Of a DNA stretch of 45,584 bases, positions 32,351-40,997 are shown piece by piece. Numbering within the stretch: the first letter of the stretch is position 1; the number at the start of each line of letters is the position of its first letter. The DNA is from Candidatus Rokuibacteriota bacterium (GTDB lineage: Bacteria; Methylomirabilota; Methylomirabilia; Rokubacteriales; CSP1-6): positions 1 to 45,584 of the forward strand of contig QHSZ01000126.1 of the NCBI GenBank assembly GCA_003220595.1, read 5' to 3'. A program made the translations under genes and the position numbers. The notes beneath the pieces are model-generated. The model made no database searches and was not told where the DNA came from. It saw only the letters and a list, made by a program, of their open reading frames with translations.

Positions 32351-33949
32351 TCACGCGGCCGGGTGCGCCGTGGAGTCGCCCCGGCTCGCGGGCCGGAGCC
32401 GCGCCGCGATGTGCTCGGCTGCTCGCACGGCCAATGCGGCGATGGTGAGCGTCGGCGGGGAAGCACTGGCCGTGACGAAGCACCCGCTCCCCACCAGGTA
32501 GAGGTTGGGGACGTCGTGGGCCTTGAGTGCCACGTCCACGACGCTGGTTCCGGGGTCGGTACCCATCCGGTGAGTTCCGATCTGGTGCGCGGCGAAGGAG
32601 AGGCCGGTGGATCGCACGTCGGTCAGGCCCATGGCCATCAGGATCTTCTGCGCGACCTCCTTGGCGTCGTCGAGCGCCTTGCGCTCGTACTTGCCGACGA
32701 TGTAGTGGATGTGCGGCGCGGGGCTGCCGAAGTAATCGCGGACGTTCGCGTTGAGAGAGATCGTGTTGATGCGGTCGGGCAGCTGTTCGGCGTATACGCG
32801 GATACCGAGCCAGTGCCCAAACTCCTCCCGCACACGCGTGCGCAGCGCCTCACCCCATTGGCCGCTGGCGCCGGCGATCCGCTCCGGCGTCGGTCCCGCG
32901 GAGTTCAGGAACTCGAGGAGGAAGGCTCCGTGCGTTGCCCGATCGCGCTCGATGGCGAACTGTCGGGACATGGCGGTCGAGAACCCGATGCGATACGGAT
33001 ACACGTTCTCGCGGGCGCGCCCGGTGAGGTCGATCGACGGGTGCGACATGAAGAACTTCCCCACCAGCCCGCTCCGGTTCGCGAGCCCGCCCGGGAATTC
33101 GCGTGAGGCGGAGAGGAGGAGGAGCCGGGCGTTCTCGACCGCCCCGCCCGCGAGCACGAACACCCGGGCGTTGAGGCGGTGCTGGACCTTGTCGGGCTTC
33201 GCGTACACGGCCGCGCTCACGCCGCCCGAGCGGTCGAGCTCGAGCCTGAGCACCGTCGCCTCGGTGACGACCTGCGCATAACCGGTCGCCTCCGCTTGCG
33301 GAACGTGGGTCAGGTCGACGCTCGCCTTGGCTCCGGTGGGGCAGACCTGGCAGGTCCCACAAGCTCGGCACTGCGGGCGTCCCGCATAGGCCACCGAGTT
33401 GCGTGCTTGCGGCAGGTGATGAAGTGCGATCCCGAGAGGCTGGCAGGCGCGCGTGAACAGGCCGTCGGAGTAGCTGAAGGAAAAGGGCGGGAGTGGGAAC
33501 GGGGCGCTACGCGGCGCGGCCCACGGCTCGTCGGCCACCCCGGCGACACCGAGCATTCTCTCGGCTTCCGCATAGTAGCCGTCGAGATCCTGGTACGAGA
33601 TCGGCCAGTCGTCGGCGATCCCGTACAGTGATTTCAGCCGGAAGTCGTTCGCGTGGAGCCGGAGGGCATGACCTTCCCAGTGCAGGGTGCTCCCGCCGAC
33701 GCCGCGCGCCCTTCTCCCGCCCAATTGGTACGGGACGGGCCCGCCCACGGTGTAGCGATCCAGCCCTGGCAGCGGAGTCGCCCAGGGACTCTCACCTCTG
33801 ACGTATCGCCGCACATACTCCGGCCGCCGGGCGAAGTCGTGCCGGGGACCGGATTCGAGGACGACGACGCGGATGCCGCGGCGGGCGAGCTCGAGCGCTA
33901 GAATCCCGCCGGCGGCACCCGCGCCGACGATGGCGACCTCGGCCTCCAC
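32351..33949 (-). CDS. GMC-family FAD-dependent dehydrogenase (gluconate/sugar dehydrogenase-like large subunit)
   Basis: The 532-residue flavoprotein opens with the FAD Rossmann motif VGAGAAGG (8-15). GGSTLHWEG is the second GMC-type signature, and the C-terminal domain carries the active-site His (HQIGTHRMG) and the closing ASPPTLTIAALAVRAAE. CRACGTCQVCP (Cys194, 197, 200, 203) forms a CxxCxxCxxC cluster that could bind an iron-sulfur centre, as in FAD-dependent sugar dehydrogenases. The substrate is probably an alcohol or sugar and cannot be named. It has no export signal and may be carried through Tat with the small subunit encoded just upstream. No cytochrome c subunit is in the window. 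Confidence 0.88.
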   Translation of the reverse strand: MEAEVAIVGAGAAGGILALELARRGIRVVVLESGPRHDFARRPEYVRRYVRGESPWATPLPGLDRYTVGGPVPYQLGGRRARGVGGSTLHWEGHALRLHANDFRLKSLYGIADDWPISYQDLDGYYAEAERMLGVAGVADEPWAAPRSAPFPLPPFSFSYSDGLFTRACQPLGIALHHLPQARNSVAYAGRPQCRACGTCQVCPTGAKASVDLTHVPQAEATGYAQVVTEATVLRLELDRSGGVSAAVYAKPDKVQHRLNARVFVLAGGAVENARLLLLSASREFPGGLANRSGLVGKFFMSHPSIDLTGRARENVYPYRIGFSTAMSRQFAIERDRATHGAFLLEFLNSAGPTPERIAGASGQWGEALRTRVREEFGHWLGIRVYAEQLPDRINTISLNANVRDYFGSPAPHIHYIVGKYERKALDDAKEVAQKILMAMGLTDVRSTGLSFAAHQIGTHRMGTDPGTSVVDVALKAHDVPNLYLVGSGCFVTASASPPTLTIAALAVRAAEHIAARLRPASRGDSTAHPAA

Positions 33950-33968: not shown

Positions 33969-34550
33969 CTAGCGCTCAGGGCTCGTGTAGCGCGCGAGAT
34001 CGCCGCACTTCCCGGGGAACGCGCCGTACCCGACGACGGCCCAGCCCGCCGGAGAGGCATAGTAGCCGCCGATGAGATCGGGCACCGCGCGCGTCCGAAC
34101 CTCACGTGCTTTCTTGGGGAACGGGCCGAGATTCTCTTCGGGACGCACCGCCGAGGAGAAAAGCCGGTGGCGGGTGATCAGCGCGCCGCGCTGAGCGAGA
34201 TCAAGGCTCGAGAATCTGGCCCCGGCGAGGCTGTCGAGCAGGCCGGCAGTCGTCCGATAGAGCTCGAGGTAGTATCCGCCGCCCTGCGTTGTGCGCCGCT
34301 CGATGTGGTCGACGAGATACTCGCGCTCGACCGGCGACAGAGGCCCGTCCCCCACGAGCACCTCGGCGAACGCCACGAGATCCTCGAGTTGCGATCTGGA
34401 AAGCGCCGCTGCCGCCGGCTCCGCCGCGAGCTGAGCCGACGCGGTCGCGGCGGCGTGAGCTCGCCCGCCGGGGGACCGCAGCACCCCCGACGGATTGAAC
34501 CCCAGCGCCGCCGCGACTCCGAGGATCAGGCTCCGTCGAGTGAGCGTCAC
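33969..34550 (-). CDS. Tat-exported dehydrogenase small subunit (gluconate 2-dehydrogenase subunit 3 family)
   Basis: The 193-residue product starts at GTG 34550. The N-terminus carries a twin-arginine signal (TRRSLILG plus a hydrophobic stretch ending near AHAAA). The mature helical part (LSRSQLEDLVAFAEVL...YYASPAGWAVVGY) has the look of the small subunit that accompanies GMC dehydrogenases and carries them across the membrane. It lies 19 nt before the GMC gene, fitting a two-subunit enzyme. An open frame extends farther upstream but overlaps the next gene and lacks a signal in the right place. Confidence 0.8.
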   Translation of the reverse strand: MTLTRRSLILGVAAALGFNPSGVLRSPGGRAHAAATASAQLAAEPAAAALSRSQLEDLVAFAEVLVGDGPLSPVEREYLVDHIERRTTQGGGYYLELYRTTAGLLDSLAGARFSSLDLAQRGALITRHRLFSSAVRPEENLGPFPKKAREVRTRAVPDLIGGYYASPAGWAVVGYGAFPGKCGDLARYTSPER

Positions 34551-34555
34551 CGAGC

Positions 34556-34912
34556 CTAGGGTTCGACCGTCTTGATGGCCGGAGCGCAGACGACCGCCAG
34601 CCGGTCGAAGCCCGGCCGGAGCGCTATCGTCTCGAAGCCAAACGGATCCTCGAGCGTGACGACAGCCCTCGGCCCCGCGGGAAACGGGGGGGCGTCGTAG
34701 CACTTCAGATGGTCGGCACTGAACGGATCAAAATTGCCATTGAGCACGGGCCCGTGTTCCACCGTCGCCTGGGGCGCGCCCGAGGGGTCCACGCTCGTCG
34801 GCGTGCACAGCAGCCTGGCCCTGCCAAGCTGCACGTGCTGATGGGTGCCGAACTGGTCGGTCAGCGTGAGGACGTAAGGAGAATCGGCGCCGTTGATAAC
34901 GTAGCAATGCAA
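34556..34912 (-). CDS. DUF7450-like secreted protein, apparently frameshifted at its start
   Basis: The frame contains two half-repeats (HCYVINGADS...LTLTDQFG...RARLLCTPT and DHLKCYDAPPF...VTLEDPFG...LAVVCAP), a pattern I associate with DUF7450-type proteins. The ORF opens at TTG 34912, but the frame is clear up to 34990 and encodes a signal-like PLIGSSAVVAHA. A perfect AGGAGG (35006-35001) with ATG 34994 lies just upstream in a different frame, directly before an in-frame TGA (34993-34991). A small indel within the signal peptide, or a sequencing error, would explain this. Function unknown. It sits between the protease and dehydrogenase genes. Confidence 0.65.
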   Translation of the reverse strand: MHCYVINGADSPYVLTLTDQFGTHQHVQLGRARLLCTPTSVDPSGAPQATVEHGPVLNGNFDPFSADHLKCYDAPPFPAGPRAVVTLEDPFGFETIALRPGFDRLAVVCAPAIKTVEP

Positions 34913-35029: not shown

Positions 35030-37765
35030 CTAGTATCTGTCCACGGGCCGAACGGTGATCGTGTCTGTACCCCGGACCCCTTCGCCGCCAAGAGTCATGG
35101 CGTCCAGCACCACGTTGGAGACGCCGTCGGGGAGCAACTTCGCGCTGGCCTTGAACACGCAGACGAGGTCGGCCCGGCCGTCGCGGTTGACGTCGAACCT
35201 GCCGCAGAGGAAGTGTCCGAAGAACTGGAACACGTGGCGAGACCAGATCCCCGACCCCTGGGCGGACGCGCCGGTGAGAAGGATCGAGGCCGGATCGAGC
35301 ATGGTCGCGTCGCGCGTGGCGCTGCTGAAGATCACCGCCACGATGAACGGCCTGAAGTCGTCATCGAAGTCCTCACGCCGAGCCGTCTCTCGAGGAATCA
35401 GGACGGTCTTGATGACGACCGCGCAGGCGTCGGCGTTTTGACTGGGATTGCGCGTCAGAGGGCAGTTATCGTCGAAGTCTACGATACCGTCCCCATCGGT
35501 GTCGACGCTGATGAACCTGGCGTCGTCGGCGGTGATTTCGGGGGTCTCGAAGGTGTGGGCACCTTCAGCGAAGTCCAGTGAGGCCCGGAAGTTGAGTTTG
35601 ATGTTCTGCCAATCGTTGAAGCCGGCCAGCGTCTCGCCCGGCGAGTCCCCGCAGCCGGCAATGACGAACTTGTTGAGGTCCCGACCAACGCCTGTCTCCG
35701 TCGTCGTGTTGATGAGGTTCCAGTTGATCGGGCCGGCGCCCGAGGTGACTTTGGGCTTGAGCACATTGGTAGGAGGGGTGGGGACTGGCGGTCCGAACGC
35801 GATGTTGCCGGAGTAGCCACCGATGCCCGCGGACTCGTCCAGGCTCAACTCGTTCAGCGTGAGCAGCGTTTGCCGGGAGTAGTCTAACGGGAACGGATTG
35901 ACCGGGCTGCTGAACTGGTAGACATAGTTCATCCGGCTCGTGTAGTTGGGCTTGCAGTTGACGTTCTCGAAGCCCCCGTGGCGCAGGCTCAGGTTGTGTC
36001 CCAGCTCGTGCATGAAGGTCCCGCCCTGCTGGTCCGTGGTCCCCACGTTGTGGCCGCCTACCGGGACCTGCGCGAAGCCCCCGAGCGAGACCATGAGGTC
36101 GTTGCCCAGGATCTCGGCGCAGCCCGAGGAGCCGCTGCCGGTCTGGTTGTGCACGAAGAGAGCGTAGTGGTACGCGTAGCGCTTGGTGCTGAGCCGCTGG
36201 GCCGCGTTCGTCGCGCCGCGTTCGGCTGCGGTTCCGAACCACGTGGCCTTGAGCGTGTCGTAGTTCGCGTCACCGGCAGCGGGCAGCGGCGTGCAGGGGA
36301 CGAGGGCCGTATTCGTGGTGTGGAGCGGGGGGCCGGTCACTGTCCCGTCGGTCGTGAGCTGATCGTCGATCTGGACGTGTAGCCTGATGCCCGTCGTGCC
36401 GTCCGGATTGGTGACCGGCGCGATGCCGAACGCGTTGGCCACGTTGGCGATCGCCACCGGATCGGGCCTGTGGAACTGCATGAAGTCGGCCTCGACGAAG
36501 ATGTCCTTGTGGTTGGGACTCGCGCACTCACCGGCATCGAAGGCGCCGTTACCGTTCATGTCCACGCAGAGGGTGACGCCGCGGAACGCGGTGCTCCGGT
36601 TCGTGGTGTAGACGCCGTCGACGCTGATCCCCGGAAGGCCGTCACTCCAGAAGCTGCCGTTCTCCCAGCAGTCCAGGAGACCGTCGCCGTCGGCGTCCGG
36701 GGCGCTGCCCGTGACCTGATCACACGCCGCCGGAAACCGCAGCGGCGCTCCCGCGTTCTGGCCGCTCGTTCCAGCCGCCACTTCGAGGCCGATCAGTCGA
36801 CCGAAGGTCGTGCTAGAACTCGAGCCAACGGCATCCTTCGTCCACAGGACGTCCCTCAGCGGGGCCTGGAGCCCAAAGCTCCCCGGATCGTCCGGAACCC
36901 CTGCGGGATCGACCATCGTCACTCCTGCGGGGAGGGTTATGCTGAAGGACCTTACGAGGTTGCCGTTGGTCTTGTCGAGCTGCCGGATCGTTGATGGACC
37001 GCCGGTCGGCGCCGCACACGCGACGAAGAGACTCACGCCTGCGACCCCAATCCCGGAGACCGGCGTAGTGCAGCCTGACGGGATCGTCGCCGGCACGGCG
37101 GCGACTCCGGTCGCGGTGAGATGGAGGATATTGGAGCCCGCCGAGGTCTGGTAGACCGTCTTGTCCTTCGTGTCCCACGCGATTCCATTGCAGTTGGAGC
37201 CGGCAGACCCGGTGAAAAGGGGAGTCACCGCGCCTGGGGCGCCTGCCGGGTCGAACGGGCTGAAGTGAATCACGTAGACGTCGCCATGTGCTGGCGCGGT
37301 TGGTGCCGAAGCGATGGAAAGGGAAGTGAGGACCGGGCCACCACTGATGTTCGTGCAGCCGAGGAGATCCCCGGTGTCGGCTCGGTACGCCAAGGCGTTC
37401 CATGGAGTCGCGACCGAGGTGAGGATCGTCGTCTTGAGGACGGCGGACGTCGCCGACGTGTCGCTCGTGACGGGGTCGAGGAAGAAGAGTCTGGATTGAG
37501 TGCCCTCACTCGAAGTAACGCAGCTGGTCACCACGAGGCTGGGGATCGCGGGGAAACCCGCCTTCCCACCCGATACGATCGCGACAGCCGTTCCGAAGTC
37601 GGTGGAGGATTCGCTGAAGCTGCACCCCGCCGTACTGGGAATGCTGACACTCTTGATGACATCCCCGACGGCCGCCTCGGAGGCACGCGTGGACGTCGCG
37701 AGAGCCAGAACGATCGCCAATCCTAGAACAACTCGCTTCACGAAAACTCGGCTCTTCCCGCTCAT
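35030..37765 (-). CDS. Secreted metzincin-type zinc metalloprotease with calcium-binding repeats
   Basis: The 911-residue product has a signal peptide (about 8-30) and a Gly/Ser/Thr-rich beta-propeller-like N-terminal half. DADGDGLLD and DMNGNGAFD look like calcium loops. The protease core has HELGHNLSLRHGG near residue 586 (HExxHxxxxxH) and a downstream SRMNY that could be the Met-turn. DTDGDGIVDFDDNCP is a thrombospondin type 3-like repeat and DVNRDGRADL a further EF-like loop. It probably degrades extracellular protein. ATG 37765 has GGTGGAG upstream; GTG 37774 is an alternative. First gene of the minus-strand operon. Confidence 0.85.
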   Translation of the reverse strand: MSGKSRVFVKRVVLGLAIVLALATSTRASEAAVGDVIKSVSIPSTAGCSFSESSTDFGTAVAIVSGGKAGFPAIPSLVVTSCVTSSEGTQSRLFFLDPVTSDTSATSAVLKTTILTSVATPWNALAYRADTGDLLGCTNISGGPVLTSLSIASAPTAPAHGDVYVIHFSPFDPAGAPGAVTPLFTGSAGSNCNGIAWDTKDKTVYQTSAGSNILHLTATGVAAVPATIPSGCTTPVSGIGVAGVSLFVACAAPTGGPSTIRQLDKTNGNLVRSFSITLPAGVTMVDPAGVPDDPGSFGLQAPLRDVLWTKDAVGSSSSTTFGRLIGLEVAAGTSGQNAGAPLRFPAACDQVTGSAPDADGDGLLDCWENGSFWSDGLPGISVDGVYTTNRSTAFRGVTLCVDMNGNGAFDAGECASPNHKDIFVEADFMQFHRPDPVAIANVANAFGIAPVTNPDGTTGIRLHVQIDDQLTTDGTVTGPPLHTTNTALVPCTPLPAAGDANYDTLKATWFGTAAERGATNAAQRLSTKRYAYHYALFVHNQTGSGSSGCAEILGNDLMVSLGGFAQVPVGGHNVGTTDQQGGTFMHELGHNLSLRHGGFENVNCKPNYTSRMNYVYQFSSPVNPFPLDYSRQTLLTLNELSLDESAGIGGYSGNIAFGPPVPTPPTNVLKPKVTSGAGPINWNLINTTTETGVGRDLNKFVIAGCGDSPGETLAGFNDWQNIKLNFRASLDFAEGAHTFETPEITADDARFISVDTDGDGIVDFDDNCPLTRNPSQNADACAVVIKTVLIPRETARREDFDDDFRPFIVAVIFSSATRDATMLDPASILLTGASAQGSGIWSRHVFQFFGHFLCGRFDVNRDGRADLVCVFKASAKLLPDGVSNVVLDAMTLGGEGVRGTDTITVRPVDRY

Positions 37766-38005
37766 CGTCTCCACCCTTCCTTCGTCCTACCACCGACAAC
37801 ACGATCAGTGATGAACCGCTCGAGTCTGAGAGGGATCAGGAGGTCGGCGGTGCTGTCTGTATCCCCGCGCTGGAACTCCGAGAGCCCGTATCTCGTACTC
37901 AGTCTCCGCACCTGGCCCAGTGCACCTATGAATCGCTCAGCTGCGACATCGATGAACGCCGCCCGCTACGCAGTTGACTTTTACCTTGCCGTGGACTAGA
38001 CGTCG

Positions 38006-38023
38006 ATACGTAGTTCTACGTAT
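38006..38023. promoter_or_regulatory. Perfect 18-bp palindrome between the protease operon and the LuxR-type gene
   Basis: ATACGTAG-TT-CTACGTAT is an exact 8+2+8 inverted repeat in the 291-bp spacer between divergent genes. Its size matches lux-box-type operators. It is 8 bp upstream of a TACTAT -10 candidate, covering the -35 position of the regulator gene, and 241 bp from the protease start. The remaining spacer (37766-38005) holds no gene I can support. Confidence 0.6.
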
Positions 38024-38031
38024 TACCGTTC

Positions 38032-38037
38032 TACTAT
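38032..38037 (+). promoter_or_regulatory. -10 candidate for the LuxR-type regulator
   Basis: TACTAT (four of six) lies 19 nt before ATG 38057. The 18-bp palindrome occupies the -35 region, which would suit autoregulation. A second candidate, TTGACT (37974-37979) with a 17-bp spacer and TAGACG, is weaker. Confidence 0.35.
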
Positions 38038-38056
38038 CGTTCCACGCATTTCCGGA

Positions 38057-39169
38057 ATGGTCGCTCGTGGGCCGGGGGGCGGGTTGGGGCGCTTAACTCA
38101 GCGGGACCTTCGGGCCCTCGGTGCCTGCGTCACGGAGATCTATGCGCTCCTCGATCTCGACACCTTCCGCGAGCACGTGGTTCGTGCGATCGCGAAAGTC
38201 GTTCCGGCCGAGGTCATCACGTACACCGAGATCGGGCGTCGTGGACAGCCCACCGTCCGGGTCCTGCATCCCGCCCGTGCCGTCACTTCTGACCTCATGC
38301 TGGCCTTCGAGCACCACAGGCACGAGCACCCTCTCATCAAGCATTTCGGTGACAACCCTCACGGTCGCGCCGCCAAGATCTCTGACTTCTTGACCCAGCG
38401 CGAGTTTCGTCGCCTTGGGCTCTATGACGAGTTCTTTCGCCAGATCGGTGTGGACCACCAGATGGTCGTTGGGCTCCCCGCGCCATCGCCGCGGGTCGTT
38501 GGCGTTGCGCTGAACCGGAGCGGATTGGACTTCTCGGAGCGCGATCGGTTGCTCTTGAGCGCGCTCCGGCCCCACATCGTCCAGGCTCTTAGGAACGCCG
38601 AGTCGTTTTCTCAGATGAAGGGAGAGGTCGCGCTGGTCCTGCAGGGGCTGGAGGAGATCGGACGGGGGATCGTACTATTGGGACCGGACGGCGGGATCAG
38701 GTCTGCCACGCGGCTGGCGCGTCAGTGGTTGACGACCTACTTCGGCCATCGAGCCGAACGGGCGAAACGCCTACCGGATGCTCTCGAGCGCTGGGTCAGA
38801 TTCCAGGGGACGACCGTCAACGGCTCCGGTGACGTCCTCTCCGCTCGCAAACCCCTGATCGTGGAGGGCGAGGATCGCCGTCTCGTCGTGCGGCTCATCC
38901 CTGCGTCTGGCGGCGGTCTGCTCCTGCTGGAGCAGCGACACACCGCCGCCACCCCTGCGTCGTTCGAGTCCCTGGGGCTCAGTCGTCGAGAAGCCGAGGT
39001 GCTGGCCTGGGTCGCACAGGGCAAGACCGACGCCGTCATCGGGACGATCCTGAGCCTGAGCTCCCGCACGGTCGCCAAGCACCTCGAGCATATCTACCAG
39101 AGGCTCGGCGTCGAGAACCGATCGGCGGCGGTCGCGCTTGCGCTCACGACGCCGCTGGCGACGCAGTAG
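38057..39169 (+). CDS. LuxR-family transcriptional regulator
   Basis: The 370-residue protein has an N-terminal sensory region (about 20-180, GAF-like), a second PAS-like segment (about 190-290, GIVLLGPDGGIRSATRLA) and a C-terminal LuxR HTH (about 305-365) with LSRREAEVLAWVAQGKTDAVIG and SSRTVAKHLEHIYQRLGV. It has no receiver domain and no clear autoinducer-binding signature, so its ligand is unknown. It is divergent from the protease-dehydrogenase operon with an 18-bp palindrome between, which makes it the likely local regulator. Codon bias is less extreme than in the housekeeping block. Confidence 0.88.
   Translation: MVARGPGGGLGRLTQRDLRALGACVTEIYALLDLDTFREHVVRAIAKVVPAEVITYTEIGRRGQPTVRVLHPARAVTSDLMLAFEHHRHEHPLIKHFGDNPHGRAAKISDFLTQREFRRLGLYDEFFRQIGVDHQMVVGLPAPSPRVVGVALNRSGLDFSERDRLLLSALRPHIVQALRNAESFSQMKGEVALVLQGLEEIGRGIVLLGPDGGIRSATRLARQWLTTYFGHRAERAKRLPDALERWVRFQGTTVNGSGDVLSARKPLIVEGEDRRLVVRLIPASGGGLLLLEQRHTAATPASFESLGLSRREAEVLAWVAQGKTDAVIGTILSLSSRTVAKHLEHIYQRLGVENRSAAVALALTTPLATQ

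Positions 39170-39197: not shown

Positions 39198-40997
<1,800 letters not shown>

Follow-up and report, generated by a model that had tools for sequence, protein, structure and literature searches.

The known systems closest to the regulator described here include the LuxR-type quorum-sensing activators LuxR, TraR, CviR and QscR, with which it shares a GerE helix-turn-helix (HTH) and a ligand domain of GAF-like fold. Conserved tryptophans in the ligand pocket mark the LuxR receptors that respond to acyl-homoserine lactones. The regulator differs from LuxR-type activators in giving no match to the Autoind_bind family, in having no tryptophan in residues 1–223, in an added PAS-like middle domain and in the letters of its putative operator, ATACG-N8-CGTAT. 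What the operator class has in common with that of LuxR-type activators is a palindrome next to a −35 element (class II); according to a review, the lux box sits immediately upstream of the −35, and shifting the box abolishes activation (PMC13043044).

Three further systems invite comparison. VqsR, an orphan LuxR protein of Pseudomonas aeruginosa, is the closest structure to the N-terminal domain; unlike VqsR, the present regulator is 361–370 aa long with an extra middle domain, and family searches in Pfam and NCBIfam showed no sequence-level match to VqsR. EpsA (XrtB/PEP-CTERM-associated, TIGR03020) resembles the regulator in its HTH and leaves the N-terminal part unmatched; for a tie to exported proteins, the family name is the only hint. 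The NarL/FixJ-type response regulators found near urtA-like genes in Proteobacteria have the same HTH subtype and the same operator class (ATACGTCGATTGACGTAT and kin), but they carry a receiver domain, which the regulator studied here lacks.

The divergent spacer and its conservation

The DNA analysed is a stretch of 45,584 nt from a Candidatus Rokuibacteriota genome (G000), referred to below as the window. It holds a spacer from which a protease operon on the minus strand and a LuxR-type regulator gene on the plus strand diverge (Table 1). Within the spacer lies ATACGTAGTTCTACGTAT, an exact inverted repeat with 8+8-bp arms and a TT centre. Shuffled versions of the window are expected to hold no match to it. 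The palindrome, which the original prediction had reported correctly, exceeds chance. It occurs once in the whole 4.06-Mb genome, and a single occurrence in G000 was also found for ATACGTAGNNCTACGTAT, for TACGTAGNNCTACGTA when its TACGTAG arms were allowed as many as two mismatches and for ATACG-N8-CGTAT. With its single site, G000 has no genome-wide regulon of this kind.

Table 1. Features of the divergent locus, in coordinates of the window.
Feature	Position	Strand	Remarks
GMC oxidoreductase of the operon	32351..33949	-	
Tat-signal-like protein of the operon	33969..34703	-	without Pfam match; probably starts internally
Small exported protein of the operon	34556..34912	-	G053 counterpart 160 aa, with signal-like N-terminus
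Exported metalloprotease-like protein, predicted target	35030..37765	-	Reprolysin_3, HELGHNLSLRH, weak TSP3; start ATG 37765
Conserved spacer block, both predicted promoters and operator	37973..38023	.	45/51 identical in G000 and two G053 alleles
Predicted regulator −35, TTGACT	37974..37979	+	17 nt before TAGACG; prediction only
Predicted protease-operon −10, TAAAAG	37978..37983	-	17 nt from −35; kept in both G053 alleles; prediction only
Predicted regulator −10, TAGACG	37997..38002	+	3 nt before operator; prediction only
Predicted protease-operon −35, TCGACG	38001..38006	-	one base common with operator; prediction only
18-bp palindromic operator (putative), ATACGTAGTTCTACGTAT, class ATACG-N8-CGTAT	38006..38023	.	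exact repeat; unique; conserved in G053; class found 5' of homologues
Regulator: GAF-like N-domain, PAS-like middle, GerE/LuxR HTH	38084..39169	+	starts probably at TTG 38084; ATG 38057 opens a longer frame
Regulator N-domain, GAF / LuxR ligand-domain fold	38105..38614	+	residues 17–186 of the longer frame; VqsR LBD match
GerE helix-turn-helix	38978..39142	+	residues 308–362; Pfam E 5.2e-16

The locus recurs in one other genome, G053, which gave the sole close match to the regulator and the sole close match to the protease (77% identity each) among the 99 genomes searched. The exact palindrome is present there twice. The copy on contig C8 stands 5' of the regulator gene, and the edge of that contig still includes the beginning of a protease gene; the copy on contig C73 stands 5' of a full-length protease gene. 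Since the two contigs overlap at 91% identity and their combined gene order is that of the window, they probably represent a single locus in two strain variants; the doubled spacer itself suggests strain variation or assembly duplication. The two spacer versions are C8:1–426 and C73:1–425, and one of the contigs stops at the palindrome. Downstream of the regulator and convergent to it lies thiC (39198–40901, minus strand), in the same order in G053. Both the regulator–protease pair and an exact copy of its site thus recur at the orthologous locus, and the proposed link of the regulator to the protease operon is supported.

When the three alleles are aligned, a block that opens with GTTGACTTTTA and closes with the last base of the palindrome is identical at about 45 of 51 bases (counted by hand on the alignment line). 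It is the sole well-conserved stretch of the spacer, the remainder of which aligns poorly and with indels, and no other conserved block nearer the protease start was seen in this alignment. The block includes two predicted promoters that overlap and face opposite ways. The palindrome covers the predicted start point of the regulator promoter and adjoins the predicted −35 of the protease promoter. The original prediction had set it in the −35 region of the regulator; this placement is rejected, because the palindrome follows the predicted regulator −10, beginning 3 nt after it.

On the protease side, TCGACG-17-TAAAAG in the window compares with TGGACG-17-TAAAAG in both G053 alleles, and the differences among alleles fall between the hexamers, bar the one in this −35. 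The protease −35 and −10 match the consensus at 4/6 positions each. Of the T positions in the window, 0.06% begin a hexamer of at least 4/6 that has a −10 scoring 4/6 or better exactly 17 nt away. The built-in consensus scan with its strict cut-off returned no promoter between 37700 and 38120, so both promoters rest on conservation and on the homologues.

Domain structure of the regulator

The regulator probably starts at the TTG rather than at the ATG upstream of it, because most homologues begin there with M-x-(R/Q/H)-L. Its AlphaFold model has a mean pLDDT of 89.4 and a pTM of 0.70. The best structural match of the N-terminal domain is the VqsR ligand-binding domain (5xhx_B; Z 15.5, rmsd 3.1, 163 aligned residues, 14% identity), with phytochrome GAF domains so close behind that the fold leaves the ligand undefined. 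Residues about 200–297 of the model form an alpha/beta domain that looks PAS-like by the order of its elements.

At an E value of 0.01, GerE is the sole Pfam match of the regulator, which confirms it as LuxR-type, and neither Autoind_bind nor Response_reg is found. The best NCBIfam match is EpsA, restricted to the HTH, with a score of 66.5 against a cut-off of 170. The statement that the protein lacks a standard autoinducer domain is therefore right as to Pfam, whereas the N-terminal domain does have the GAF-like fold of LuxR ligand domains. As the first tryptophan of the translation comes no earlier than residue 224, the known acyl-homoserine-lactone pocket is absent; quorum sensing through acyl-homoserine lactones was rejected on these grounds, namely the missing Pfam domain and the missing tryptophans. 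A search for LuxI-type synthases matched in 0/2 genomes, yet it matched in 0/14 controls as well. Control by density or nutrients, also part of the original prediction, is unsupported.

An operator class among regulator relatives

The 300 bp before each gene were scanned for 25 full-length relatives of the regulator, 15 of them from Methylomirabilota genomes and ten from contigs labelled Acidobacteria, Granulicella, Deltaproteobacteria, Nitrospira, Betaproteobacteria, Burkholderiales, Rubrobacter or Bryobacterales. Shared ancestry was not corrected for in any of the counts and p-values given here. The window regulator is a full-length member of this family (alignment A3), with GAF-like domain, middle domain and GerE HTH, and has the family site upstream of its own gene. 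ATACG-N8-CGTAT stands exactly 5' of 11/25 homologues and with at most one mismatch 5' of 15/25. The homologue of G059 has a twelfth exact site, which falls outside the 11/25 through a mis-set gene start; until that start is corrected, it is among the ten homologues with no site even at one mismatch. Spacing is fixed: exact matches at gaps of 2–7 and 9–14 numbered zero in the 25 upstream regions, as did exact matches to the reversed control, and shuffled upstream regions gave a mean of 0.005 regions with a match. Five Methylomirabilis-like genomes hold 28 exact sites versus 0 for the reversed control. Two ATACG-N8-CGTAT places in G028 were rejected as operators; they lie inside predicted genes and look like chance. 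The homologues in L062 (G059), L080 (Rubrobacter) and L084 (Bryobacterales) look split in two frames, which may reflect sequencing error or decay.

While the outer ATACG and CGTAT are constant, the inner bases differ by member (TAG/CTA, TCA/TGA, GAA/TTC, CCA, CAT, GCA). The first inner base is C in 7/7 members with Q or H after the TV of the recognition helix and in 1/6 members with A or G at that position (Fisher p 0.005, tabulated by hand and with shared ancestry ignored). Relatives with a receiver domain in Proteobacteria, which have N after TV, show ATACGTC..GACGTAT sites a few kb upstream.

Sites of the form ATACGTC(G/A)..TGACGTA(T/A), or close variants of it, were noted at the receiver–GerE loci L098, L122, L135, L137, L140, L095, L100, L104, L138 and L147; in the two loci checked, L098 and L137, the site has a urtA-like gene on its far side. 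In G033 and G016, ATACGTAGggCTACGTAT and kin, the same palindrome or one that differs by a single base, occur at L186 3395–3412, L187 3984–4001 and L189 4028–4045, where they overlap or touch the start codons of genes for single-receiver-domain proteins.

The palindrome is very probably the operator of the adjacent regulator, judging from the sequence comparisons above. That some other DNA-binding protein binds it is improbable. Such a binder would account for the palindromes at single-receiver genes in G033 and G016, two genomes for which the homologue search returned no full-length relative of the window regulator; against it, the operator class tracks the regulator family over Methylomirabilota and over contigs labelled Rubrobacter and Bryobacterales, and the sixth base of the site tracks a residue of the recognition helix. 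More remote still is that the repeat works in RNA rather than in DNA, as a 5'-terminal hairpin of the regulator mRNA. A stem is possible in the predicted transcript, but folding of the leader is unexceptional (z −1.39), homologues fix the letters ATACG/CGTAT while the inner pairing is imperfect (e.g. 7/9 pairs), and in some of them the site lies upstream of the −35.

Promoter register at related sites

The position of promoters relative to the operator was read from 53 distinct sites with at least 6/9 palindromic pairs, giving 106 flanks. A −35 of at least 5/6 occurs in one fixed register, its first T being the last T of the site, on 26/106 flanks, and on 0/106 flanks in each of 11 other registers. 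At every listed site the strong hexamer is present on one side only; therefore it is a promoter element and not an extension of the operator. The weaker TCGACG that faces the protease in the window stands in this register.

Sites differ in where they stand relative to the promoter of the regulator gene. In six promoters (G000, G053, G078, G077b, G059 and G065), TTGAC(T/A) is followed after 15–18 nt by a −10, and the operator begins 2–5 nt after this −10, over the start point. In three others (G077a, G062a and G066) the site adjoins the regulator's own −35, implying self-activation, and in two (G045 and G019) the expected start point comes about 73 bp downstream of it. Because these positions differ (over the start, next to the −35, near −73), family members would differ in the sign of their effect. 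Two sites of G077, at L049 4641–4658 and 4690–4707, are 49 bp apart, and each is next to an outward TTGAC −35; one of these promoters points toward a multicopper oxidase gene and the other toward the regulator itself.

These arrangements bear on how the single palindrome of the window might serve its two neighbours. A regulator dimer would bind the palindrome as an operator common to two overlapping divergent promoters. Bound directly upstream of the −35 of the protease/oxidoreductase operon, it would activate that operon in the class II manner known from LuxR; at the same time it would cover the start point of its own gene and so repress itself, and the signal would be sensed by its GAF-like domain. 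One operator for the overlapping divergent promoters is favoured because the promoters are conserved, the register is kept and the 240 bp from operator to protease ATG are typical, related sites lying about 200–460 bp from the start of many exported targets. We lean toward this full two-way arrangement, activation of the protease operon together with repression of the regulator, with a caution that the locus recurs in just one other genome, G053, and there on broken contigs. The autoregulation that had been proposed earlier agrees with it by position, through the operator 3 nt after the predicted regulator −10.

Rather less probable is that the regulator, through the palindrome, represses only itself and that the protease escapes its control, using a promoter of its own further downstream. 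The position after the regulator −10, which recurs in several homologues, would suit a plain autorepressor, as would the 240 bp to the protease start and the weakness of the divergent hexamers. Yet all three alleles keep a −35 in the register that faces the divergent gene, and the flank facing that gene reaches at least 4/6 in 7/7 repressor-type promoters (the six listed above and that of Rubrobacter L080). Since the site fixes that T, the figure is to be set against the T-starting hexamers of the window, 9.3% of which reach at least 4/6. The lack of a further conserved block nearer the protease start and the clear class II sites of two homologues, G077a and G062a, also speak against repression alone.

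The protease operon and other predicted exported targets

The predicted target matches Reprolysin_3 in Pfam at 26.2 bits, above the cut-off of 22.4, and has the zinc motif HExxH...H. Metzincins usually have G at one position of this motif where HELGHNLSLRH has S. Against solved structures the protease sequence gave one marginal match, to an OmpA-family protein and over the repeat region only. With a small exported protein, a Tat-signal-like protein and a GMC oxidoreductase behind the protease, "protease-dehydrogenase operon" is a fair description. Taken as a whole, the earlier interpretation of the locus survives in its LuxR-type regulator, its 18-bp operator and its protease link; its −35 placement is corrected, and its density or nutrient control is unsupported.

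Exported proteins are frequent at related sites. Genes were called by longest frame and codon-position GC score and not by a trained gene finder, so the neighbour counts are approximate. The nearest divergent gene is signal- or membrane-like in 10/12 homologues with an exact upstream site, some gene starts being uncertain; by comparison, the N-terminus is signal- or membrane-like for 43/142 genes of these loci that encode 150 aa or more. Among the ten, the protein of G077b is a polytopic membrane protein, and the two exceptions are G062a and Rubrobacter. The other 13/25 homologues include one (Deltaproteobacteria) with such a divergent gene, if a short overlapping frame is skipped; for the remaining 12, the divergent gene is not signal- or membrane-like, or there is none in the data. 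For the 27 distinct flanks whose −35 reaches 5/6 or better, manual reading placed a first gene in reach of 25, and 16 of these first genes are signal- or membrane-like (binomial p 0.0005, ancestry ignored). The exported neighbours vary, from metalloprotease, Kelch-PKD and IPT/TIG with RHS to TIG, multicopper oxidase and Ig-like proteins.

In three Methylomirabilis-like genomes (L169 4149, L175 4034 and L165 4004), a divergent pair of genes flanks the site, one encoding an exported HbpS-like protein and the other an exported YVTN/YncE-like beta-propeller (Pfam assignments on the L169 pair only). At L181 (G077), too, the protein that the site faces is similar to these HbpS-like proteins.

A family of regulators and its significance

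Neither the operator class nor the −35 register rule was found described in open-access text, a search that sequences shown in figures would escape. The regulator family is apparently undescribed; the LuxR-like operator logic itself was already known. A wider reading is offered tentatively, as possible rather than probable: that these proteins form a GAF-sensor LuxR family of several phyla, independent of acyl-homoserine lactones, that uses ATACG-N8-CGTAT with an inner-base code in many modules of one regulator and one exported protein. The three inner bases per arm would be the specificity code, read by the residue after TV, with Q/H going with C, N with T, and G/A mostly with T or G. A module would consist of one operator common to two overlapping divergent promoters and an adjacent exported protein, the targets being protease, Kelch, IPT/TIG and multicopper oxidase proteins.

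From one palindrome the analysis arrives at an operator rule that can be tested, for a family of regulators in soil and methane-oxidising bacteria that are mostly uncultured, the Rokubacteria and Methylomirabilis. In each genome the rule predicts targets, many of which are exported, and it hints at how these organisms may time the secretion of enzymes.
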